A stretch of 64,000 nt of DNA, taken from the NCBI GenBank assembly GCA_025642075.2, contig JAODUO010000043.1, positions 367,501 to 431,500 of the forward strand, in the 5' to 3' direction. Both the position numbers and the translations under genes were made by a program. Source of the stretch: Ridgeia piscesae (Eukaryota > Annelida > Polychaeta > Sabellida > Siboglinidae). Below are positions 5,946 to 59,750 of the stretch, piece after piece (position 1 is the first letter of the stretch; each line of letters begins with the position of its first letter). The notes beneath the pieces were generated by a model. It saw only the letters and a list, made by a program, of their open reading frames with translations. It was not told where the DNA came from and did no database searches.

Positions 5946-6231
5946 GGATGGTCGTCTTGAGGAGAACGACCAGATCCTGGCCATAGACAACCATGCCCTA
6001 GACGCCAACATCTCACACCAGCAGGCCATCCGAATCTTGCAGAAGGCAAGCGGACAAGTCGAACTCGTGGTTGCCCGTGGCCCGATTGCTGCTGCGCCGT
6101 CGGTGCCGCTGACAGCACCGCCCACCGCGAGCGCCACCCATACCGTCGGTGCGCCCAAACCGAGTGAGCACTCGGCGGGCAGCACCTTGGACCGGACGCC
6201 ATCCCATGCCAGTGAGGGATCAGACATGGTG
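5946..6231 (+). CDS. MPDZ: Exon 1 of window: second half of PDZ1 plus linker
   Basis: The exon starts after a GTAG acceptor with one base that completes a split codon, and ends in frame at ATG-GTG before the donor GTGAGT (95 codons). Residues 1-46 are the second half of PDZ1: [14 protein letters not shown] is the strand and turn before helix [13 protein letters not shown] is helix B, and VELVVARG is the last strand. This pattern is typical of MPDZ/PATJ PDZ1. Residues 47-95 form a linker rich in Ala, Pro, Thr and Ser. The exon carrying the first half of PDZ1, with its GLGF-type loop, should precede it but was not found between 1 and 5945. The sequence is GC-rich against an AT-rich background, as expected for coding DNA. 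Confidence 0.93.
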
Positions 6232-25396: not shown

Positions 25397-25531
25397 TTGA
25401 GCACAGAATGGAGCCAAATCGAAGTGATAGACCTACTCAACGACGGCTCCGGGCTCGGCTTTGGCATCATCGGTGGCAAGAGCACTGGCGTTGTCGTCAA
25501 GACCATCCTACCTGGGGGAGTGGCAGACAAG
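25397..25531 (+). CDS. MPDZ: Exon 2: first half of PDZ2
   Basis: Forty-five codons, phase 0 at both ends, between the acceptor TTTCAG and the donor GTCAGT. Residues 96-140. It encodes the first strands of PDZ2 with the carboxylate-binding loop GLGFGIIGG and the strand [16 protein letters not shown]. The pair [14 protein letters not shown] and [10 protein letters not shown] is close to the known MPDZ/PATJ PDZ2, which makes this the most diagnostic exon for the family. The domain continues directly in exon 3. The intron before it is about 19 kb, the longest seen in the window. Confidence 0.95.
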
Positions 25532-28178: not shown

Positions 28179-28472
28179 GACGGTCGCCTCCTAAGCGGGG
28201 ATCACCTGCTGCAGATCGGTGACGTCAACGTGCGGGGCATGGGCTCGGAGCAGGTGGCGTCTGTGCTACGGCAGTCGGGCGCTCACGTCCGGCTGATCGT
28301 GGCCCGCCCCGTCAATGAGCCCACCCCGAACACTCACCACAACGCCCAGGTGGTGCCCACCTACCAGCTGGACGAACACCTCCACAACATCAACCAGACC
28401 CTCGCTGTCATGGACGGCATGAACGAGTACAACATGGGCGTGTCAGCCGAGTATTTCGCTCAGATACACTCG
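28179..28472 (+). CDS. MPDZ: Exon 3: second half of PDZ2 plus linker
   Basis: Ninety-eight codons, phase 0 to 0, after a pyrimidine-rich acceptor ending TTCCCAG and before the donor GTGAGG. Residues 141-238. It begins [18 protein letters not shown], then helix B ([13 protein letters not shown]) and the final strand VRLIVARP, completing PDZ2. Residues from about 186 on form a linker with His, Asn and Gln, including a stretch around [16 protein letters not shown] that I do not assign to a known domain. The break between the two PDZ2 exons falls just before the DGRL motif; the first exon of the window begins one base before the same motif in PDZ1, consistent with duplicated domains sharing intron sites. 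Confidence 0.94.
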
Positions 28473-30531: not shown

Positions 30532-30628
30532 CCCCCGCAGGAGTTGGCGCTTCCAGAGGTGGAGTTTTTCGAAGTGGAGCTCGTCAAAGACACTCAGGGA
30601 CTCGGCATCACGATCGCTGGTTACGTGG
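30532..30628 (+). CDS. MPDZ: Exon 4: start of PDZ3
   Basis: The exon runs from the acceptor CCCGTCCAG to the donor GTGAGC and ends in phase 1 (32 codons plus one base). Residues 239-270. VEFFEVELVKDTQGLGITIAG gives strand A and the PDZ3 carboxylate-binding loop in its GLGI form. A second acceptor-like CAG lies nine bases into the exon (30538-30540), so use of either site would add or remove three residues (Pro-Pro-Gln) without a frame change. The chosen start is the upstream site because it has the better pyrimidine tract. Confidence 0.88.
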
Positions 30629-31411
30629 GTGAGCGAACCTCAGGTGCGCACATTTGCACACACACCCACACGCACGTAGAGCCTCACTCTCACTGTCGCA
30701 GGGTTGACGGTCATTTACGGGTCTAAGACCAGTGGGGCAATTCAAACGTTATACTCTGACTTGTTGTTGCTTCACTGTGTCAACAAATAAATGGGGAAAA
30801 TTGGGAGAAAACATGTCAAAACACAGCAGATTTTTCCTGTCTTATTAATCAGTATTGATGCTATTCCTGACAGGAGGGGAGTTCTTTTAAATTGAAGACC
30901 TTTTCTTGCTGTCAAATATTGTCAAGATGTAATGTATAGATAATTTTTTATATAATTGTAACACAATGATTGCCATGTACTATGATGTTGTGGGTGAGGG
31001 AAAAGCTATTAGCTACCCTCTTCCTGGGCTTAATGAAGGAGTTCGTGGGATTTTATTAAATGTCAGGCATTTTGTATTTGGGTGGAAAATGTTCAAGCAG
31101 TTCATTCGGGTTGTGTGTGCTGGTATTTGTGAAAGTAAACGATGATGTTTGTACAATTCTTCTGACACGCAATTTTTAATTAACAGACATGCCAAAAGTG
31201 CACGTTCACTTTGCTGGTGCGTGGTAAATGGAATATATCGTGTTATGCAACTTGGTTCATTTAAGTTTGAACGCATGTCAGTGCATTGGTCAGTGCATTG
31301 GTCAGTGTAGCGTGACAGGTCAATGAGTTGGACCCAAGGAACAGGCCAGAGTACACGAGTGTTACCTCATTGGAACCAACGTCTGGCAGATCTGGCACCA
31401 TTCCGTCACTG

Positions 31412-31552
31412 CATGATGTCACCACTCACCTGTCTGTGTCCTCTGTCATGATGTCACCACTCACCTGTCTGTGTCCTCTGTCATGATGTCACCACTCACC
31501 TGTCTGTGTCCTCTGTCATGATGTCACCACTCACCTGTCTGTGTCCTCTGTC
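31412..31552 (+). repeat. 35-bp minisatellite, four copies
   Basis: Four essentially perfect copies containing ATGATGTCACCACTCACC and TGTCTGTGTCCTCTGT. A smaller repeat of GTCAGTGCATTG lies just upstream (31270-31310). Confidence 0.92.
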
Positions 31553-31815
31553 GTGTAGATCACTAGGGTCTAGTTGATACAGTAGTAGTGACAGAATGAC
31601 TTCTTTGGTGCCAGTGTGCTACAAGACAACGGATTAAGTGTTCTCATTACAAGCATGGAATAGTAAGGGAATCTTTGAGTTTGAGTTCCTTAAATGTCCC
31701 TTACATACATTCTCCTGTGTTAAGTTGATTTACTAGATCGATGTTTCTCTACAGGTAGCATATGCTGTTAGTTATTTTTTTTTAATCAAGTGCCCTTCAA
31801 CTAAGCACATCATGT

Positions 31816-31817
31816 TT

Positions 31818-31902
<85 letters not shown>

Positions 31903-31945
31903 TATATATGTATTTTATATATATATATAATATATATATATATAT

Positions 31946-31985
<40 letters not shown>

Positions 31986-32068
31986 TATATATATATATAT
32001 AAATATATATATGTATATATAATATATATATATAATTATATATGTATTATATATATATATTATATATG

Positions 32069-32119
<51 letters not shown>

Positions 32120-32120
32120 G

Positions 32121-32178
<58 letters not shown>
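31816..32178. repeat. Long TA tract
   Basis: About 360 bases of TA repeat interrupted by ATTATATATGTATT-type blocks. Such tracts are unstable and hard to assemble. Confidence 0.95.
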
Positions 32179-32181
<3 letters not shown>

Positions 32182-32841
32182 CAGGTGGAATCCTAATGTC
32201 AGCCTCAGGACTGCCAAAGTGACGTAAGAAGGTAATCATATTAGTTGGACTAATTTCCTATACTTTACTGTTACGGAAATCATTTGGGATGGTTCTAGGA
32301 AACCATAGTAATAACCTTGAAGAGAAGTCCAGTTGTGCCGATATAATAATAATGATAATGCCACTTCTATAGCACCTATATCCTTGAGAATTCAAGCTCA
32401 GTAACACACAGAATCATTAGGCATAATCATAAATGGGGACACGCAAGAGTTGCAAAGATACTGATTGTCCTTAGTTATATGTGTCTCGGAATAAGAGTTG
32501 CCTTATGTGTGTTGAGTGCATCTGGGACTTGAGGAAGGGAGTGAGACAGATGGTATTTCTGACACCCGGCCGTATTACAGGCACAACTTAATGAGTCGGC
32601 ACGCACAAACAAGCTTCACTGTCAAGTAGATAAAAGCAGTGACCTTTGCATCCACCGTGACTTCGCTCTGGCTTGCTGCATTAGACGTTCCGTGTGTGTG
32701 TGCCATCACTTTTGAGTTCTACATAGTATGTTTGGTTTGGTTTTGCTTGCTTTGAAAGCTCGAGAATAGTTGTTCAGGTTTTAAAGTTTAAGATGCTATG
32801 CACTGTGGAAATAACTGAATCAATTTTTGTGCTGTGAGTGT

Positions 32842-33893
32842 GTAGTGAATACACAGTAATGTCTGTGTTGTGAATACACAGTAATGTCTGTGTTGTGAAT
32901 ACACAGTAATGTCTGTGTTGTGAATACACAGTAATGTCTGTGTTGTGAATACACAGTAATGTCTGTGTTGTGAATACACAGTAATGTCTGTGTTGTGAAT
33001 ACACAGTAATGTCTGTGTTGTGAATACACAGTAATGTCTGTGTTGTGAATACACAGTAATGTCTGTGTTGTGAATACACAGTAATGTCTGTGTTGTGAAT
33101 ACACAGTAATGTCTGTGTTGTGAATACACAGTAATGTCTGTGTTGTGAATACACAGTAATGTCTGTGTTGTGAATACACAGTAATGTCTGTGCTGTGAAT
33201 ACACAGTGACGTCTGTGCTGTGAATACACAGTGACGTCTGTCCTGTGAATACACAGTGATGTCTGTGTTGTGAATACACAATGACGTCTGTGCTGTGAAT
33301 ACACAGTGATGTCTGTGCTATGAATACACAGTGATGTCTGTGCTGTGAATACACAGTGATGTCTGTGCTGTGAATACACAGTGATGTCTGTGCTGTGAAT
33401 ACACAGTGATGTCTGTGTTGTGAATACACAGTGATGTCTGTGCTGTGAATACACAGTGATGTCTGTGCTGTGAATACACAGTGATGTCTGTGTTGTGAAT
33501 ACACAATAACGTCTGTGTTGTGAATACACAGTAACGTCTGTGCTGTGAATACACAGTAATGTCTGTGCTGTGAATACACAGTGATGTCTGTGTTGTGAAT
33601 ACACAGTGACGTCTGTGTTGTGAATACACAATGACGTCTGTGCTGTGAATACACAGTGATGTCTGTGCTATGAATACACAGTGATGTCTGTGCTGTGAAT
33701 ACACAGTGATGTCTGTGCTGTGAATACACAGTGATGTCTGTGCTGTGAATACACAGTGATGTCTGTGTTGTGAATACACAGTGATGTCTGTGCTATGAAT
33801 ACACAGTGATGTCTGTGCTGTGAATACACAGTGATGTCTGTGTTGTGAATACACAATGATGTCTGTGCTGTGAATTCACAGTAATGTCTTTCA
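32842..33893 (+). repeat. 25-bp minisatellite
   Basis: About 42 copies of a 25-bp unit containing GAATACACAGTAATGTCTGT. The left half is almost homogeneous (AGTAATGTCTGTGTTGTG); the right half carries GTGATG, GTGACG and GTGCTG variants. Since 25 is not a multiple of 3 and no frame has a stop, all three minus-strand frames are open; these are artefacts. Confidence 0.95.
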
Positions 33894-34405
33894 AAAATAC
33901 ACTGAAAAAAGTGCAGCAAATGAACAATAATGCGCTGACAGTTTCATTTGTTGGCACCAGGTGGCATGAGGAGACAGTCGCGGCTGAGTGTCTGTGATTG
34001 TCATTAGCTGCTGTGTCCCAGACAGACTGGAGATTAAAAAGTCATCTGACACAGATGTTTTTTGAGATATTGGAGCCTGATGAAAATATTGATGGAAGTG
34101 TTTTCCTGTCACTATATAGAACTTGATGAGACAAAGTAGTGTTCAACAAGGGACGGGGAGATTAGTTATAAAAAATGTTCATTCTCACAGAGGGAATTAT
34201 TAATTTATCAACTAATAATTAAAAACAGATTATTGACTAATTATGTAAATGCTAGCAGTATGAATGTGTTTAAAAAAAAAATTGACTGATCCTCAGAAGG
34301 AACAGTTAAAAAGCTGTTCACAGATAAAAGAAATTGGAATCCTGATAAATGAAAAGTTTACTCGTTCACTTTGCGTGTTGGGTTTATGCTCTGGAATGTG
34401 TTTGG

Positions 34406-34433
34406 AGTTGGATTGGATTGGATTGGATTGGAT
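34406..34433. repeat. GGATT pentamer repeat
   Basis: Five copies of GGATT. Confidence 0.85.
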
Positions 34434-34589
34434 TTATTTAATATAAATAGGATGACATAAAAAAGTGCAACCACTTGATTCCATTCTGGTTCCAGACAAA
34501 TATACAGATAAGATAAGAAAAATACATGAGAGACATTGACACAATGTGACAAATGTGACAATATTAAAACAATAATAATAATAATAATA

Positions 34590-36618
34590 AGTGAGGTTGT
34601 CACAGTGATGTGTTTGGTGTGTTCACAGAGGAGTTGTGAAGTGAGGTTGACACTGAGATGTGTTTGGTGTGTTCAACAGGAGTTGTGAAGTGAGGTTGTC
34701 ACTGTGATGTGTTTGGTGTGTTCACAGAGGAGTTGTGAAGTGAGGTTGTCACTGTGATGTGTTTGGTGTGTTCACAGAGGAGTTGTGAAGTGAGGTTGTC
34801 ACTGTGATGTGTTTGGTGTGTTCAACAGGAGTTGTGAAGTGAGGTTGTCATTGTGATGTGTTTGGTGTGTTCAACAGAGGAGTTGTGAAGTGAGGTTGTC
34901 ACTGTGATGTGTTTGGTGTGTTCACAGAGGAGTTGTGAAGTGAGGTTGACACTGATGTGTTTGGTGTGTTCACAGGAGTTGTGAATGAGGTTGTCATGTG
35001 ATGTGTTTGGTGTGTTCACAGGAGTTGTGAAGTGAGGTTGACACTGAGATGTGTTTGGTGTGTTCAACAGGAGTTGTGAAGTGAGGTTGTCACTGTGATG
35101 TGTTTGGTGTGTTCACAGAGGAGTTGTGAAGTGAGGTTGTCACTGTGATGTGTTTGGTGTGTTCAACAGGAGTTGTGAAGTGAGGTTGTCACTGTGATGT
35201 GTTTGGTGTGTTCACAGAGGAGTTGTGAAGTGAGGTTGCACTGCGATGTGTTTGGTGTGTTCAAAGGAGTTGTGAAGTGAGGTTGTCATTGTGATGTGTT
35301 TGGTGTGTTCAACAGAGGAGTTGTGAAGTGAGGTTGTCACTGTGATGTGTTTGGTGTGTTCACAGAGAAGTTGTGAAGTGAGGTTGATTTCACTGCATGT
35401 GATGTGTTTGGTGTGTTCAACAGGAGTTGTGAAGTGAGGTTGTCACTGTGATGTGTTTGGTGTGTTCAACAGGAGTTGTGAAGTGAGGTTGTCATTGTGA
35501 TGTGTTTGGTGTGTTCAACAGAGGAGTTGTGAAGTGAGGTTGTCATTGTGATGTGTTTGGTGTGTTCAACAGGAGTTGTGAAGTGAGGTTGACACTGCGA
35601 TGTGTTTGGTGTGTTCACAGAGGAGTTGTGAAGTGAGGTTGACACTGCGATGTGTTTGGTGTGTTCACAGAGGAGTTGTGAAGTGAGGTTGTCATTGTGA
35701 TGTGTTTGGTGTGTTCACAGAGGAGTTGTGAAGTGAGGTTGTCACTGCGATGTGTTTGGTGTGTTCACAGAGGAGTTGTGAAGTGAGGTTGTCACTGCGA
35801 TGTGTTTGGTGTGTTCAACAGGAGTTGTGAAGTGAGGTTGTCACTGTGATGTGTTTGGTGTGTTTACAGAGGAGTTGTGAAGTGAGGTTGTCACTGCGAT
35901 GTGTTTGGTGTGTTCAACAGGAGTTGTGAAGTGAGGTTGTCACTGTGATGTGTTTGGTGTGTTCACAGAGGAGTTGTTAAGTGAGGTTGTCATTGTGATG
36001 TGTTTGGTGTGTTCAACAGGAGTTGTGAAGTGAGGTTGTCATTGTGATGTGTTTGGTGTGTTCACAGAGGAGTTGTGAAGTGAGGTTGTCACTGTGATGT
36101 GTTTGGTGTGTTCAACAGGAGTTGTGAAGTGAGGTTGTCACTGTGATGTGTTTGGTGTGTTCAACAGGAGTTGTGAAGTGAGGTTGTCACTGTGATGTGT
36201 TTGGTGTGTTCACAGAGGAGTTGTGAAGTGAGTTTGTCACTGTGATGTGTTTGGTGTGTTCAACAGGAGTTGTGAAGTGAGGTTGTCACTGTGATGTGTT
36301 TGGTGTGTTCAACAGGAGTTGTGAAGTGAGGTTGTCATTGTGATGTGTTTGGTGTGTTCACAGAGGAGTTGTGAAGTGAGGTTGTCATTGTGATGTGTTT
36401 GGTGTGTTCAACAGGAGTTGTGAAGTGAGGTTGTCACTGTGATGTGTTTGGTGTGTTCAACAGGAGTTGTGAAGTGAGGTTGTCATTGTGATGTGTTTGG
36501 TGTGTTCACAGAGGAGTTGTGAAGTGAGTTTGTCACTGTGATGTGTTTGGTGTGTTCACAGGAGTTGTGAAGTGAGGTTGTCACTGTGATGTGTTTGGTG
36601 TGTTCACAGAGGAGTTGT
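34590..36618 (+). repeat. Minisatellite (47-50 bp) that includes the exon 5 splice acceptor
   Basis: About 40 copies of a unit containing GTGAGGTTGTCACTGTGATG and TTTGGTGTGTTCACAG followed by AGGAGTTGTGAA. The last, truncated copy provides the acceptor and first nine bases of exon 5. Copies fall into acceptor types TTCACAGAGG, TTCAACAGG, TTCAACAGAGG and TTCACAGG. Each full unit also contains GAAGTGAGG, a donor-like sequence. Confidence 0.95.
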
Positions 36619-36701
36619 CAGGCATCTTTGTGCGCAGTATCTCTGAAGGCAGTGCTGCAGCCCTCGATGGACGCATACAGGTCAACGACCAGATCATTGA
36701 G
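36610..36701 (+). CDS. MPDZ: Exon 5: middle of PDZ3
   Basis: A 92-base exon that enters in phase 1 and leaves in phase 0 before a perfect donor, GTAAGT. The first codon joins G from exon 4 with AG. Residues 271-301 give the strand SGIFVRSISEGSAA and the DGRIQVNDQIIE turn of PDZ3. The first nine bases (36610-36618) and the whole acceptor region are identical to the unit of the tandem array that ends here, so the true 3' splice site is the last of a long series of copies. The site was chosen because it is the only one that keeps the PDZ3 frame open. Confidence 0.9.
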
Positions 36702-38140
36702 GTAAGTAAACAACTACAACTTTCTGAAGACATTTGGAGAAAAGAACGAATCCAATGAGCTTCAAGTTCAGGCTGAAACAAAGAGGACTTGATTTCCCTG
36801 TCCACCATGTCTTTGATATTAGCTAAATACACAGCAACCTTTGTGAATTCACTGGGTTACATTGTTGAAAAGAAGGAACAGTTATGAATCAGACAGAAGG
36901 TCGACATGTTCTATGTGTTTAGGATTATCTACAGATGGTGCTGCCATCTAGCAGTCAGTCATGAAGCATGAGAATAACACATTTAACAACACAAGCACAA
37001 ATTTATCTGTACGTAAAGAAATCTCACCTGGAACATTTAACATATTTCTGAAATGTAATATGGATTTTTGGTCCAAGTGCAACTGTTTTTATTCGTAAAC
37101 GTGTTTCGGATTAAATGTAGCAGATATCCTTTGATGTAGGAATATTTAGTATAGTAACAGTTTGTTTGCTAAATGTGCCTTTTGCCTAATACAAGTATTA
37201 GGTGGTGATATTTGATTGGTACTGGTGAAACAAAATGGAATTAATTTGATGTAGGAACATTTTCATAGGCAGATTAACCAGTCGCAAATTGGACATTGAG
37301 ACAGTGTGTGGTCACTGCTGTGACATTGAGACTGGACATTGAGACAGTGTGTGGTCACTGCTGTGACATTGAGACTGGACATTGAGACAGTGTGTGGTCA
37401 CTGCTGTGACATTGAGACTGGACATTGAGACAGTGTGTGGTCACTGCTGTGACATTGAGACTGGACATTGAGACAGTGTGTGGTCACTGCTGTGACATTG
37501 AGACTGGGCATTGAGACAGTGTGTGGTCACTGCTGTGACATTGAGACTGGACATTGAGACAGTGTGTGGTCACTGCTGTGACATTGAGACTGGACATTGA
37601 GACAGTGTGTGGTCACTGCTGTGACATTGAGACTGGACATTGAGACAGTGTGTGGTCACTGCTGTGACATTGAGACTGGACATTGAGACAGTGTGTGGTC
37701 ACTGCTGTGACATTGAGACTGGACATTGAGACAGTGTGTGGTCACTGCTGTGACATTGAGACTGGACATTGAGACAGTGTGTGGTCACTGCTGTGACATT
37801 GAGACTGGACATTGAGACAGTGTGTGGTCACTGCTGTGACATTGAGACTGGACATTGAGACAGTGTGTGGTCACTGCTGTGACATTGAGACTGGACATTG
37901 AGACAGTGTGTGGTCACTGCTGTGACATTGAGACTGGACATTGAGACAGTGTGTGGTCACTGCTGTGACATTGAGACTGGACATTGAGACAGTGTGTGGT
38001 CACTGCTGTGACATTGAGACTGGACATTGAGACAGTGTGTGTTCACTGCTGTGACATTGAGACTGGACATTGAGACAGTGTGTGGTCACTGCTGTGACAT
38101 TGAGACTGGACATTGAGACAGTGGGTGTGGTGTGATTCAG
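36702..38140 (+). other. Intron 5
   Basis: The first 590 bases are AT-rich and unremarkable. The remainder is the homogeneous 43-bp minisatellite (37291-38125), which reaches almost to the acceptor of exon 6. Confidence 0.88.
37291..38125 (+). repeat. 43-bp minisatellite next to exon 6
   Basis: About 19 copies, nearly identical, with TGGACATTGAGACAGTGTGT and GTCACTGCTGTGACATTGAG. Only isolated changes were noticed (for example GGGCATTG near 37505 and GTGTTCACTG near 38040). Confidence 0.95.
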
Positions 38141-38276
38141 GTGGACAACCACCTACTGGAGGGGTTCAACAACCACCAGGCTGTGGAGGTGCTCAGGAAC
38201 ACAGGTCAGGTGGTGCGTCTCAAGCTGGCCCGCTACAACCACGGCACCAAGTACCAGCAGCTACAACAGTATGCAA
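38141..38276 (+). CDS. MPDZ: Exon 6: end of PDZ3
   Basis: Forty-five codons plus one base; acceptor TGTGATTCAG, donor GTGAGT, phase 0 in and 1 out. Residues 302-346. VDNHLLEGF, helix B (NHQAVEVLRNTG) and the last strand VVRLKLARY complete PDZ3, followed by a short Gln-rich tail. PDZ3 is thus split over three exons. A 43-bp minisatellite ends about 15 bases upstream, leaving little room for an independent branch point, so the branch point may lie inside the array. Confidence 0.93.
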
Positions 38277-39558: not shown

Positions 39559-39638
39559 GTGGTGACCTTGATCTAAATATGGAACAAAGTCTCAAGGAAA
39601 GGTGGCAAGTGATTGTTGGAGACGAATATGAAATAGTG
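39559..39638 (+). CDS. MPDZ: Exon 8: linker leading into PDZ4
   Basis: An 80-base exon, phase 1 in and 0 out, acceptor TTCACTAG, donor GTATGT. Residues 383-409. It encodes LKERWQVIVGDEYEIV, which resembles the conserved stretch that precedes PDZ4 in MPDZ/PATJ and provides part of strand A of that domain. The last residues run directly into VAQLSKF of exon 9. Its small size makes it easy to miss. Confidence 0.88.
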
Positions 39639-40043
39639 GTATGTGATAATAATACATTTTTGTTGTTGCAGTATTGTAATATTATTATTATTGAATCTAA
39701 CTGTTTGAAAGTTTCCATCTGTCTGTGGATTCTATGCACAGCCAGAGGGAAACTTTGAAACAAGTTAGATTAATATATTCTATAATATTATATTAATTAT
39801 TTCAGATTTGGATTACTTTATTCTAACTGATCACTGTTGATGTATTAAGTGACTAATTTATTTATTTAAACAATTAAACTTTGATATATTGATGTTTATA
39901 AAAAATGATTATAAATGTATATTATGTTATGTTTTTTATACTTAAACATGGTTTTAATATATGAACTATTTATGGATTATTATCTAGCACACTGCTCCAC
40001 TGAGTTGCGGATACGGCGCTTTACAGAGCAAACTGTATTACAG
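39639..40043 (+). other. Intron 8
   Basis: A 405-base, very AT-rich intron with nothing recognisable in it. Confidence 0.85.
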
Positions 40044-40217
40044 GTTGCGCAGCTGTCCAAGTTTCGCGAGGGTGGTGGCCTGGGCATCAGTCTGGAGGGG
40101 ACGGTGGACGTAGAGAACGGTCAAGAAGTGCGGCCACACCACTATATCCGCTCCGTGCTCATAGAGGGTCCTGTGGGTGCTAACGGCAGACTCAAGAGTG
40201 GGGATGAATTACTCGAG
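40044..40217 (+). CDS. MPDZ: Exon 9: first half of PDZ4
   Basis: Fifty-eight codons, phase 0 to 0, between ATTACAG and GTATGT. Residues 410-467. VAQLSKFREGGGLGISLEG carries the carboxylate-binding loop (GLGI), and HHYIRSVLIEGPVGANG followed by LKSGDELLE are the next strands. Compared with the family, about nine residues (around VENGQEVRP, 40107-40136) appear inserted in the loop between strands B and C. The exon is in frame throughout and the insertion is not repeat-like. Confidence 0.94.
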
Positions 40218-40935: not shown

Positions 40936-41322
40936 GTAAACAACACAACACTGCTGGGTCTCAACCACGTGGAGGTGGTGATGATCCTCAAGGAACTGCC
41001 CCAGCACGTACGCATCGTGTGTGCCCGCAAGAAGCCCCCGCCCTCCACCGTCTACGTGCCGCCCTCGGACACATTCTTCCAGACTCCGGCCGCTGCGTCC
41101 ACGCAGCCTATGGCCCTGTCGGCCAGTGACCGCCTTGTCAAGGCCAAGTCCGAGCAGGCGTTGTCCGTCACGAGCAACGTCGCCCTCGAGAACTCCCTCA
41201 ACAAGTTGAAGTCACGTTCGCTTGAGCCGTTGTCCGGTCTCGCCATGTGGAGCAGTGAGCCTGTGGTCATTTGTCTCGAGAAGGGTGACCGGGGACTTGG
41301 GTTCAGCATTCTTGATTACCAG
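40936..41322 (+). CDS. MPDZ: Exon 10: end of PDZ4, linker, start of PDZ5
   Basis: The longest exon here: 129 codons, phase 0 to 0, acceptor TTGTGTAG, donor GTCAGG. Residues 468-596. VNNTTLLGLNHVEVVMILKE and VRIVCARKK close PDZ4. A linker of about 80 residues rich in Pro, Ser, Ala and Thr follows. VVICLEKGDRGLGFSILDYQ then opens PDZ5 with a canonical GLGF loop. ILDYQ after the loop is a recognisable MPDZ/PATJ PDZ5 feature. Confidence 0.95.
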
Positions 41323-41951: not shown

Positions 41952-42206
41952 GACCCCATCAACCCAGTGGAGACGGTCATCGTCATCCGCAGCCTTGTCC
42001 CAGGTGGCATTGCACAGATGGACGGCCGCCTGGTGCCCGGTGACCGACTCGTTTTCGTCAACGACACAAACGTCGAGAATGCCACACTCGATGAAGCTGT
42101 GCAGGCCCTCAAGGGGGCGCCAAAAGGCACCGTGAGAATCGGTGTCGCCAAGCCCCTGCCTCTGCCTGAGATTGGAGAATCGAGTACAGATGACATCGAT
42201 GACATG
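41952..42206 (+). CDS. MPDZ: Exon 11: rest of PDZ5
   Basis: Eighty-five codons, phase 0 to 0, acceptor TTGACCCAG, donor GTGAGT. Residues 597-681. The stretch from VIVIRSLVPGGIAQMDGR through GDRLVFVNDTNVENATLDEA to TVRIGVAKPLPLPE matches PDZ5 of MPDZ/PATJ very closely and is the best conserved part of the window. The tail ESSTDDIDDM is acidic and starts the long linker. Confidence 0.96.
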
Positions 42207-43077: not shown

Positions 43078-43260
43078 ACACTCGAGACAATGCCTCAGCC
43101 CCCCACAGTGCTGCCTCCACCCCCCGACATATCACCCCCTCATACACCCCCGCCAGCCCCCCCACGGGAGGAGAGCATGGAGCCTGAGGTGGAGGTCGGC
43201 TTCAGCGACACAACGCTGCAGCAACTGAGTGCCAACGAGATGGAGCTGGAGAGTGAGGAG
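43078..43260 (+). CDS. MPDZ: Exon 12: proline-rich linker
   Basis: Sixty-one codons, phase 0 to 0, after TTTGCTCTTCAG and before GTAGGT. Residues 682-742. It contains a polyproline run (VLPPPPDISPPHTPPPAPP) and an acidic tail (NEMELESEE), with no folded domain seen. Such runs can bind SH3, WW or EVH1 domains; this is inference. The frame is also open upstream as far as 42802, but phase rules out the acceptor-like AG at 43035-43036, and the site used has the best pyrimidine tract and keeps phase 0 with exon 11. Confidence 0.82.
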
Positions 43261-43484
43261 GTAGGTGCACTGCATGCTGGGAAACGCTTATGCGGGCGGT
43301 GCAGGCGTGATGTTTGTTTCGGTCGGTGAACGTGGGCGTATCATGATTTTTTGTGATGTGGAGTGATTATCAGGGTTTCAGATTCGTGTTTTTGCTTTCA
43401 TGTTCCGCCATTCAGAAGCCTGTGTGTGTTATGTTGTCACATTGTCTCTTTCCAGTGGCTGGTGTCAATGCGTCATCTTTGTCT

Positions 43485-45075
43485 TGTTTCATTTCAGTCA
43501 GACGTATGCGTGTTCTCTTCATCTTGTTTTATTTAAGTCAGACACGTGTGTTGTCTGTGTCTTGTTCTAGTTCATTCAAATGCCAGTGTGTCATCTTTGT
43601 CTTGTTCTGTTTAACTGTATATGTCATCTCTGTCTTGTTCTATTTCAGTCAGACACCAGTGTGTCCTCTTGGTCTTGTTCTGTTTAAGTCATACAACTAT
43701 ATATGTCATCTTTGTCTTGTTCTAATTCAATCAGACACCAGTGTGTCCTCTTGGTCTTGTTCTGTTTAAGTCATACAACTGTACATATCATCTTTGTCTT
43801 GTTCTAATTCAATCAGACACCAGTGTGTCCTCCTGGTCTTGTTCTGTTTAAGTCATACAACTGTACATGTCATCTTTGTCTTGTTCTAATTCAATCAGAC
43901 ACGAGTGTGTCCTCCTGGTCTTGTTCTGTTTAAGTCATACAACTGTACATGTCATCTTTGTCTTGTTCTAATTCAATCAGACACCAGTGTGTCCTCTTGG
44001 TCTTGTTCTGTTTAAGTCATACAACTGTACATGTCATCTTTGTCTTGTTCTAATTCAATCAGACACCAGTGTGTCCTCTTGGTCTTGTTCTGTTTAAGTC
44101 ATACAACTGTACATGTCATCTTTGTCTTGTTCTAATTCAATCAGACACCAGTGTGTCCTCCTGGTCTTGTTCTGTTTAAGTCATACAACTGTACATGTCA
44201 TCTTTGTCTTGTTCTAATTCAATCAGACACCAGTGTGTCCTCTTGGTCTTGTTCTGTTTAAGTCATACAACTGTACATGTCATCTTTGTCTTGTTCTAAT
44301 TCAATCAGACACCAGTGTGTCCTCTTGGTCTTGTTCTGTTTAAGTCATACAACTGTATATGTCATTTTTGTCTTGTTCTAATTCAGTCAGACACCAGTGT
44401 GTCCTCTTGGTCTTGTTCTGTTTAAGTCATACAACTGTATATGTCATCTCCGTCTTGTTCTAATTCAGTCAGACACCAGTGTGTCCTCTTGGTCTTGTTC
44501 TGTTTAAGTCATAAACTGTACATGTCATCTTTGTCTTGTTCTAATTCAGTCAGACACCAGTGTGTCCTCTTGGTCTTGTTCTGTTTAAGTCATACAACTG
44601 TATATGTAATCTTTGTCTTGTTCTAATGCAGTCAGACACCAGTGTGTCCTCTTGGTCTTGTTCTGTTTAAGTCATACAACTGTATATGTCATCTTTGTCT
44701 TGTTCTAATTCAGTCAGACACCAGTGTGTCCTCTTGGTCTTGTTCTGTTTAAGTCATACAACTCTACATGTCATCTTTGTCTTGTTCTAATTCAGTCAGA
44801 CACCAGTTTGTCCTCTTGGTCTTGTTCTGTTTAAGTCATACAACTCTACATGTCATCTTTGTCTTGTTCTAATTCAATCAGACACCAGTTTGTCCTCTTG
44901 GTCTTGTTCTGTTTAAGTCATACAACTCTACATGTCATCTCCGTCTTGTTCTAATTCAGTCAGACACCAGTGTGTCCTCTTGGTCTTGTTCTTTTAAGTC
45001 ATAACTGTATACATCATCTTTGTCTTGTTCTAATTCAGTCAGACACCAGGTGTCCTCTTGGTCTTGCCCCATTTC
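43485..45075 (+). repeat. 82-bp minisatellite in intron 12
   Basis: About 19 copies containing CAGACACCAGTGTGTCC, TTGGTCTTGTTCTGTTTAAG and CATCTTTGTCTTGTTCTAAT followed by TCAG or TCAATCAG. Many units contain a strong 3' splice-site-like sequence (pyrimidine tract plus CAG). Confidence 0.94.
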
Positions 45076-45122: not shown

Positions 45123-45385
45123 GTGCCACACTCCATGTGCCTGTGTGCTACAGTTGTTAGTGCCACACTCCATGTGCCTGTGTGCTACAGTTGTTTGTGC
45201 CACACTCCATGTGCCTGTGTGCTACAGTTGTTTGTGCCACACTCCATGTGCCTGTGTGCTACAGTTGTTTGTGCCACACTCCATGTGCCTGTGTGCTACA
45301 GTTGTTTGTGCCACACTCCATGTGCCTGTGTGCTACAGTTGTTTGTGCCACACTCCATGTGCCTGTGTGCTACAGTTGTTTGTGC
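45123..45385 (+). repeat. 37-bp minisatellite, seven copies
   Basis: Seven near-perfect copies of a unit with GTGCCACACTCCATGTGCCT and GTGTGCTACAGTTGTTT. Confidence 0.94.
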
Positions 45386-45837
45386 TTGCACTTTGACAGT
45401 TAGGGAGTACGGAGTCGAGTGACGGCGCGGCAGCAGCAGCCTGTGACCAGGTACACACTGCATGTCAACCTGCTGCATGTGTCACCTGTACCTGCGACAT
45501 GCATGAGAGAATACATGTTGTTGTTGTTGTTGTCGTTGCGTACTAACACACCTGTGTGGTCAATTAATCCAGTTGTTGTGCTACTCACGTACCTATTGTC
45601 AATGTCACCGTACAGTTTTAACTTGGTTACAAGCACACATTGAATACTGCCCAGTCCAGCTGGCCCAGTGTCTGAGGTGTACTATTTGTATAGTTGTTAT
45701 AAATTGACTATATCTGAACAAAATTATTAGGTGATTGAATTGGGGAACTATGTATTTTACCAGCTAATGTTTGCTGTGTAAATAAGTTGTACAACTTAGT
45801 TACTCTGATATGAATCATGTGATTTGTCCATACATTC

Positions 45838-47289: not shown

Positions 47290-47634
47290 GCTGCAACTGT
47301 AGGACACGAGGCTGTCACATTTGACCAGATGTTGTTAAGTGAAGATGACACGCAGCTCAAAGCCTTTGGCATCACCTCTGAAAGACCCAGTGAACTGAGG
47401 CTCAGCCATGACAACTCTGTCACTGAGTGCTCAAGTGCAGAGACCAGCCTGTATAAGCAGTACGGATTATCAGTAGAGTCAGATGGATTCTCGTCAAAGA
47501 GCCCGAGTCCGGAGAAAGTTGGCCCACCCCAACTGGCAGTGCCAAAAAAGTTGCCAGCTGCAAGCGCAAATAAGCCAAAGCTGCCCCCTAAGCCAAAGTT
47601 AGGTGACGTGTCAAAGTTGACGTCGAAGACCCAG
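47290..47634 (+). CDS. MPDZ: Exon 13: linker between PDZ5 and PDZ6
   Basis: An open stretch of 115 codons, phase 0 to 0, ending at the donor GTGAGA. Residues 743-857. It is rich in Ser, Glu and Lys and ends with a basic proline motif, NKPKLPPKPKLGD, that resembles an SH3 ligand. No domain is recognised. The start is uncertain: the acceptor TTTGAAG is weak in pyrimidines but has a branch-like CTAAC about 40 bases upstream; a second in-frame acceptor (TTTGACCAG, exon start 47329) would remove 13 residues. Accepted because it lies in order and in phase between exons 12 and 14. Confidence 0.75.
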
Positions 47635-49467: not shown

Positions 49468-49732
49468 AAGTCTCCACCAGTGGACTCAAGGGTACAACCC
49501 GCCATTTCCACATCACCCACCGCCATTGTACAAAGTCAGCCCGCCTCGCAGTCAAACTCAAGTGCCCTTACATCGTTTGCCTCATCCCCTGTCTTCACCC
49601 CTCACCCTCCGGTGACATCCCCCACCCCTGGGGTGACACGCACGATGCCTGGTTACCCCACCGACAGCATCCCCCCACTTCCATCTGCACTCGAACGCAC
49701 CATCAAGATCAAAAAGGGCACCGACCAGTTAG
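49468..49732 (+). CDS. MPDZ: Exon 14: linker and start of PDZ6
   Basis: Eighty-eight codons plus one base, acceptor TCTCTGTTTGCAG, donor GTGAGA, phase 0 in and 1 out. Residues 858-945. The first 70 residues are a Ser/Thr/Pro/Gln-rich linker. ALERTIKIKKGTDQL then gives strand A of PDZ6, and the split codon supplies the glycine of its binding loop. Splitting PDZ6 at the loop glycine joins perfectly to LTVETT in exon 15. Confidence 0.9.
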
Positions 49733-50339: not shown

Positions 50340-50541
50340 GTCTGACGGTAGAGACGACTGACAAAGGTGTCAACGGTTGCATTGTGAAGACACTCAGCCC
50401 AAATGGTGCCGTAGCTAAGGACGGTCGCATCGTCGTTGGCGACTACATCCTGACGGTGAACAACGAAAGCATGCGACGCATCTCAAATGCTCAGGCACGT
50501 GCCATACTTCGTCGGGCCTGTTTACTTGGCACAGACATCAG
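50340..50541 (+). CDS. MPDZ: Exon 15: main part of PDZ6
   Basis: Sixty-six codons plus split codons, acceptor GACGCCAG, donor GTGAGT, phase 1 in and 2 out. Residues 946-1012. The loop reads L-G-L-T-V across the junction rather than GLGF. It continues with a short strand B-C turn, CIVKTLSPNGAVAKDGR, VVGDYILTVNNESM and helix B (SNAQARAILRRACLLGTDI). ARAILRR and the following TDI are characteristic of MPDZ-family PDZ6. The domain needs exon 16 for its last strand. Confidence 0.93.
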
Positions 50542-52632: not shown

Positions 52633-52737
52633 CGTCACCTATATTCCCGCGATGGACGCAGCTGTGCACCTTGAGTCGGCCATGATCGCCCTCAACGCCC
52701 AGGAGCCACCCGAAGCGAAGAATCAACTCTCGCCCAA
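52633..52737 (+). CDS. MPDZ: Exon 16: end of PDZ6 and short linker
   Basis: A 105-base exon between GTCTGTTCCAG and GTAGGT, phase 2 in and 2 out. Residues 1013-1047. It reads SVTYIPAMDAAVHLESAM and onward; the ITYxPA-like strand followed by a short helical stretch is what closes PDZ6 in this family. It was found by extending the frame from exon 15 and checking phase. Its length is divisible by three, so skipping would keep the frame but remove the last strand of PDZ6. Confidence 0.9.
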
Positions 52738-57827: not shown

Positions 57828-58084
57828 CTCAACGTTACTGCAGCCTGGTGCTGACCAGTCCAGTGGTCAGTCAGCATACAGCCTGCAGGGAGGACGGTCA
57901 GCTTCAGACAAGGCACCAGGTCAGACAGACCAGGTGACTGTCGATGCTGATGACATTCGCGTGCCGGGGTCGCTGGCGTCAGGTGTCATGACAGGCAAGA
58001 CAGCGACGCTGGACTCCTGGGGACAGCCACGCCTTGTGGAGATTCACAGACAAGAGGGAGAGAACCTTGGCATCAGTATAGTGG
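57828..58084 (+). CDS. MPDZ: Exon 17: linker and start of PDZ7
   Basis: Eighty-five codons plus split codons, acceptor GTCTATTCCAG, donor GTGAGT, phase 2 in and 1 out. Residues 1048-1133. A Ser/Gly/Gln/Ala-rich linker is followed by PRLVEIHRQEGENLGISIVG, the first strand and binding loop of PDZ7. The exon stops in the middle of the domain, so at least one further exon must lie downstream; none is seen before 64000. From donor position +4 the intron is tandem-repeat sequence (agtacaaacag and onward). Confidence 0.93.
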
Positions 58085-58087
58085 GTG

Positions 58088-59750
<1,663 letters not shown>

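Follow-up and report, generated by a model that had tools for sequence, protein, structure and literature searches.

The MPDZ gene and its array-bearing intron

The whole 64,000-nt stretch of Ridgeia piscesae DNA analysed here, referred to as the window, carries on its plus strand part of a multi-PDZ scaffold gene. Its 17 modelled GT-AG exons join into 1103 codons without any stop, and are located as follows.

5946-6231, 25397-25531, 28179-28472, 30541-30643, 36610-36701, 38141-38276, 39559-39638, 40044-40217, 40936-41322 (+ strand): exons 1-9 of the model
41952-42206, 43078-43260, 45400-45450, 47329-47634, 49468-49732, 50340-50541, 52633-52737, 57828-58084 (+ strand): exons 10-17 of the model

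By homology, this gene is MPDZ. The best E-value in the homology search was 1.3e-235, and the top relatives listed are the MPDZ proteins of Mytilus, Lingula and Mercenaria. Of 7978 proteins scored, 4797 fell below the threshold, and the best 120 of them were taken as the homologue set; these are annotated as MPDZ, inaD-like, patj, PDZ-containing, hypothetical or unnamed proteins, with PDZ Pfam domains. The PDZ series is collinear, as the main tblastn matches of five homologues (more than 45% identity) lie in window order, and the extra matches in the same five come from other PDZ domains. Lingula is the nearest of 35 relatives chosen from the 120 (68% over 654 columns). In a quick tree of these 35, whose named members include no annelid and no phoronid, the window protein forms a group with Lingula and Tubulanus, a nemertean, at an SH-aLRT of 94, just under the star threshold; the molluscs fall outside this grouping, and Branchiostoma is placed elsewhere on a long branch. 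Homology and tree thus place the gene in a spiralian and reject a lancelet origin of the window.

When any tblastn match was counted, including matches that stem from the protein's other PDZ domains, the 120 homologues touched 14 of the 17 exons, and ten of these were touched by 115-120 homologues. Exons 57828-58084, 49468-49732, 39559-39638 and 52633-52737 were matched by 37, 12, 2 and 1 homologue(s), respectively. No tblastn match of the 120 homologues fell on 43078-43260, 45400-45450 or 47329-47634, which were modelled on the basis of open frame, phase and splice signals. An earlier model, which lacked exons 39559-39638 and 52633-52737 and had another exon start at 39988, was replaced after tblastn.

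The features surrounding the array are listed below, with a slash marking each splice junction.

30541..30643 (+ strand): upstream exon, ...TQGLGITIAGYVGERTS, ending CAG/GTGCGC; its start could also be 30532
30644..36609 (+ strand): intron of 5966 bp, with the array as its 3' third
32839-33889: 25-bp x 42 array inside the same intron
34589..36618 (+ strand): minisatellite of 41 head-to-tail copies, with a unit of 46-56 bp, mostly 49 or 50
36569..36618 (+ strand): copy 41, consisting of 41 intron bases, which include the authentic acceptor, and exon bases +1 to +9
36610..36701 (+ strand): exon 3' of the array, PDZ core, (E)ELSGIFVRSISEGSAAALDGRIQVNDQIIE; acceptor CAG/AG, donor GAG/GTAAGT
38141..38276 (+ strand): next exon, VDNHLLEGFNNHQAVEVLRNTGQVV...

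The exon 3' of the array codes for the central part of an MPDZ PDZ domain and was matched by all 120 homologues in tblastn. Its label in the original prediction, exon 5, follows the order of the modelled exons in the window and is not its number within the gene.

A repeat unit spanning the intron-exon boundary

TRF identified a single array at 34589-36618 in the window, with a period of 49, 41 copies and 93% matches. Splitting the array at an exact 13-base anchor yielded 41 units with 19 distinct sequences, and since the anchors are spaced by 46-57 bases, every copy was caught by this procedure. The unit joins about 40 terminal intron bases to the opening nine bases of exon 36610-36701. From left to right, it contains the donor-like GAAGTGAGG, a branch-point-like GTCAC, a T/G-rich tract, the acceptor (CACAG or CAACAG) and the exon bases (AG)GAGTTGT, with variants. 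As judged by its motif, the GTCAC is carried by GTTGTCACTG and lies about 26 nt ahead of the AG. The 17 bases of GATGTGTTTGGTGTGTT, 13 of which formed the anchor, are the same in all 41 copies, whereas the differences between copies cluster at the acceptor and near the branch-point-like stretch.

The 19-base junction GTGTTCACAGAGGAGTTGT has 18 matches with up to three mismatches (16 exact and two with one mismatch), all within the array, as compared to a chance expectation of 0.06, and none of 100 shuffles reached 18. The AG is kept at the homologous place in all 40 upstream copies. The upstream acceptors had been described as equal to the real one, and this holds for the 15 of the 40 that contain the exact 19-mer. 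The junction form CACAGAGGAGTTGT accounts for 16 copies, including the real one, while another 16, all upstream, have the form CAACAGGAGTTGT, which reads CAACAG/GAG and is one base shorter, and the remaining nine upstream copies bear other variants.

Judged by frame and homology, the authentic 3' splice site belongs to the array itself, as its copy 41. The 41 intron and 9 exon bases of this copy agree with the proposal that the unit represents a 3' splice site plus an exon start, and the real site had correctly been recognised as the last of about 40 copies, as 41 were counted and the last one ends 9 bases into the exon. Copy 41 is identical at 50 of 50 positions to copies 3, 4, 7, 11, 13, 28 and 33, or seven of the 40 upstream copies. 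The identity with these seven twins extends for 59-61 bases leftwards and 0 bases rightwards, and thus stops at exon base 10.

The idea that the intron part of the unit represents an earlier duplicate of the exon start was rejected, as the common GTTGTCA is within chance (P 0.16). Unusual folding of the array RNA was likewise rejected, with z values of 0.33 and -0.54 for two array pieces, and Rfam returned no matches at gathering thresholds. The segment comprising copy 41 and the exon (36569-36701), one of three pieces folded, is predicted to fold somewhat more stably than its shuffles (z -2.4), with the T/G-rich tract paired to the exon.

Presumed choice of the last acceptor

When joined to exon 30541-30643, the frame remains open only from CAG/AGGAG at 36610. 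With any of the 40 upstream acceptors, the frame is closed by a stop codon ahead of exon 36610, located at the fourth or fifth new codon in 38 copies, at the ninth in one and at the twenty-second in one. The AG two bases further (CAGAG/GAG) also leads to a stop. Splice sites were scored with rough weight matrices. On this scale, the real acceptor scores 3.0, and the upstream acceptors score at least 3.0 in 20 of 40 copies, 2.79 in 16, 1.82 in three and 0.53 in one. Copy 40 outscores the real site (3.97 versus 3.0, by the same rough matrix), and its exon, of 140 nt, is of ordinary size. The donor of exon 36610-36701, GAG/GTAAGT, scores 7.6 with the rough donor matrix and ranks second of the 17 modelled donors. 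Donor-like GT sites are present at 40 places (36 GAA/GTGAGG, two TAA/GTGAGG and two GAA/GTGAGT).

Under the scanning rule (PMC1431707), the first AG 3' of the branch point is used, although very close AGs can depart from this. Every unit appears to have its own putative branch point, about 26 nt ahead of its AG. With each AG tied to its own branch point in this manner, the decision would fall at branch-point choice. Furthermore, because the seven decoys share every base of the real site between about -50 and +9, the cell must draw on information beyond exon base 9 or on position. At the level of its letters, local sequence cannot separate copy 41 from its seven twins. The choice of the last copy is most simply explained by exon definition, in which copy 41 would win not by local sequence but by its pairing with the nearby donor across an exon of 92 nt. 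Exon definition would account for the loss of the distant copies, and less well for that of copies 38-40. Given the higher score of copy 40 and its 140-nt exon, exon definition alone does not clearly exclude this copy. Occasional use of copies 38-40, with exons of 238, 190 and 140 nt, is predicted at a low level and would yield non-productive mRNA. The selection of the last acceptor had been put forward as a genuine question, and the finding of seven letter-identical decoys sharpens it. The question is not new, however, since arrays of this kind have already been described in amphioxus as "mirages".

The locus therefore offers a natural splice-site competition, in which one authentic acceptor competes with seven upstream sites that lie at known distances and share its sequence from about -50 to +9.

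Origin of the array and other arrays near splice sites

The nine exon bases of the unit, AGGAGTTGT, together with the G ending the previous exon, encode E-E-L-(S). The 120 homologues provide 36 distinct segments at this position, 28 of which conform to the pattern acidic-(L/I/V)-(S/C/A)-G-I. Examples are GYVGEKSSEELSGIFV in lancelet, SAELSGIFV in Lingula and EELSGIFV in lancelet and locust, as well as DELSGIFV, DEISGIFV, DDLCGIFV and similar segments. The eight segments without the pattern are six from vertebrates (EP-SGIFV) and two from crinoids (EQMKGIFV and EQINGIFV). Because the exon part of the unit encodes a motif common to most of the non-vertebrate homologues compared, the array seems to have been seeded from the boundary. 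The 28 of 36 fitting segments mark the exon bases as old coding sequence, in agreement with the proposal that the array grew from the intron-exon boundary.

We consider it fairly probable (about 0.72) that the array is a mirage minisatellite, seeded from the boundary, amplified and homogenised, with copy 41 as the working acceptor. Tandem duplication would have begun from about 40 terminal bases of the MPDZ intron and the first 9 exon bases. Growth to 41 copies and homogenisation may then have proceeded by unequal exchange or gene conversion, as judged from this one sequence, with the last copy presumably still serving as the 3' splice site and the array otherwise probably neutral. The identity of copy 41 with copies inside the array suggests continuing exchange of the working edge with the array.

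That identity could also be read in the opposite direction, with an array born within the intron later overwriting the exon edge by conversion of the acceptor and the first exon bases. Copy 41 is no diverged outlier but is identical to seven interior copies, so that exchange has probably occurred one way or the other. However, the nine exon bases encode residues common to 28 of the 36 distinct homologue segments, and an unrelated repeat would match nine given bases by chance with a probability of about 4^-9. Although silent sites could still have been converted, we regard overwriting as improbable. A regulatory decoy, in which the number of copies would set the share of poison transcripts and hence the MPDZ dose or the speed of splicing, seems equally improbable. 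The premature stop behind all 40 upstream acceptors, half of which equal or exceed the real site in score, would suit such a function, and the length of a donor-containing VNTR in human ABCA7 correlates with skipping of the next exon, according to the available part of that report (PMC5954066). Nevertheless, copies of nearly one sequence would all be followed by stops even in the absence of selection, and the presence of 17 minisatellites of at least 100 bp in the window means that the array needs no special reason.

An assembly artefact, in which the repeat was misplaced or expanded, is less probable still. Lancelet repeats of a similar type did change copy number across assembly versions, as noted in the accessible portions of two reports (PMC3902484; PMC3087553), but the window contains no N, the 19 distinct unit types are arranged in mosaic order, and the array runs straight into an open, conserved exon. 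Least credible of all is that the copies act as genuine micro-exons or alternative 3' splice sites giving rise to protein isoforms. The donor-like GT at 40 places, just past the exon-derived part or at the array start, speaks for this reading, yet splicing to any of the 40 upstream acceptors would meet a stop before exon 36610 is reached, and a mini-exon within one unit, read from the sequence, would be only 10-12 nt.

The favoured reading, a boundary-seeded mirage, has precedents in amphioxus, where mirages, as described in the available parts of the reports, are tandem repeats across intron-exon boundaries in Adh3, the globins BflGb6 and BflGb9, and troponin C, to which PGBD5 repeats have been likened; splicing is reportedly undisturbed, and length differences are reported for the Adh3 mirage and one globin mirage (PMC3087553, PMC3902484). 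The MPDZ locus likewise combines a minisatellite-type tandem repeat, a unit with both exon and intron bases, and an authentic site inside the array. As far as the same sources describe them, the amphioxus units also span the boundary, and the anatomy of BflGb6 is the same. On the other hand, the MPDZ array has 41 copies of 46-56 bp, as compared to 2-7 copies of 60-160 bp in the globin and PGBD5 repeats and units of 10-72 bp in Adh3, and its unit, unlike those of amphioxus, has only 9 exon bases. Homogenisation includes the authentic copy in MPDZ, whereas the cluster boundaries are reportedly excluded in BflGb6. The mirages found in print under this name are from cephalochordates and the present one from a spiralian, a difference of host range and not of mechanism. 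No report of a spiralian mirage was found in the open-access literature searched, and, as far as these searches show, the MPDZ array is of the mirage kind in a new animal group. It thereby extends boundary-spanning minisatellites to a spiralian, provides an unusually clean example outside lancelets, in another animal branch, and draws a coding edge into the homogenisation of an intron repeat.

Other known systems are more distant, as far as the accessible parts of their reports describe them. The VNTR in intron 18 of human ABCA7 is a 25-bp array of about 12 to 427 units that flanks an exon and includes its splice donor, and a cryptic donor causes one unit to be retained at 2 +/- 1% (PMC5954066). 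It lies on the donor side and the MPDZ array on the acceptor side, no coding bases of the exon are mentioned for its unit in the available text, and the measured effect of its length is skipping of the following exon. In human segmental-duplication genes, boundary minisatellite variation can alter splice patterns (PMC2812944), although these internal tandem repeats are short, averaging 30-bp units x 4, and belong to recently duplicated genes. Tandem duplication has also been described as a route of intron gain, in which duplicated splice signals provide raw material for introns (PMC4974935; also PMC3087553). In the MPDZ case, by contrast, an intron that was already there has become larger, with no sign of an additional one.

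A census of arrays with a period of at least 9 and a length of at least 100 bp found 17 in the window, which total 14.4 kb, as compared to 60.7 kb of non-exon sequence. Besides the MPDZ array, three of them lie close to modelled splice sites.

37290..38127 (+ strand): 43-bp array, 19.5 copies, ending 13 bp ahead of the acceptor at 38141
45123..45385 (+ strand): 37-bp array, 7.1 copies, ending 14 bp ahead of the predicted 51-bp exon 45400-45450, which lacks homology support
58088..59744 (+ strand): 9-bp array AGTACACAC, about 187 copies, 3 bp past the end of exon 57828-58084

Thus, for four of the 17 arrays, the nearest modelled splice site is no more than 15 bp away, where 0.15 arrays were expected (P 2.3e-5, or 2.5e-6 by resampling, on the order of 1e-5), with the 15-bp margin fixed after the distances had been seen and array overlap allowed in the random placement. 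When the MPDZ array was left out, three of 16 remained (P 3.4e-4), and two of 16 when the unproven exon 45400-45450 was also removed (P 0.007). With a 50-bp margin, the full set of 17 gave P 0.001. Splice junctions, or processes there such as co-transcriptional breaks, might be preferred birthplaces of minisatellites in this genome, with the MPDZ mirage alone keeping the exon edge, but we regard this extension as rather unlikely.

The three neighbouring arrays are not called mirages, because none contains the exon edge. Their candidacy was rejected, as the bases from the array end to the exon are no closer to the unit than shuffles (P 0.31-0.75, three scoring schemes), and in a comparison of 12 units with 34 exon borders, their own border was never among the best three. 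Four pairs of a unit (45123, 58088, 3607 and 31412) and a distant border were slightly above the largest of 300 shuffles, and were taken as chance since each unit underwent 34 comparisons. Finally, an 82-bp array at 43468-45066 (17.8 copies), located within one intron and not at its end, has acceptor-like half-units (TTGTCTTGTTCTAATTCAGTCAGACACCAG).
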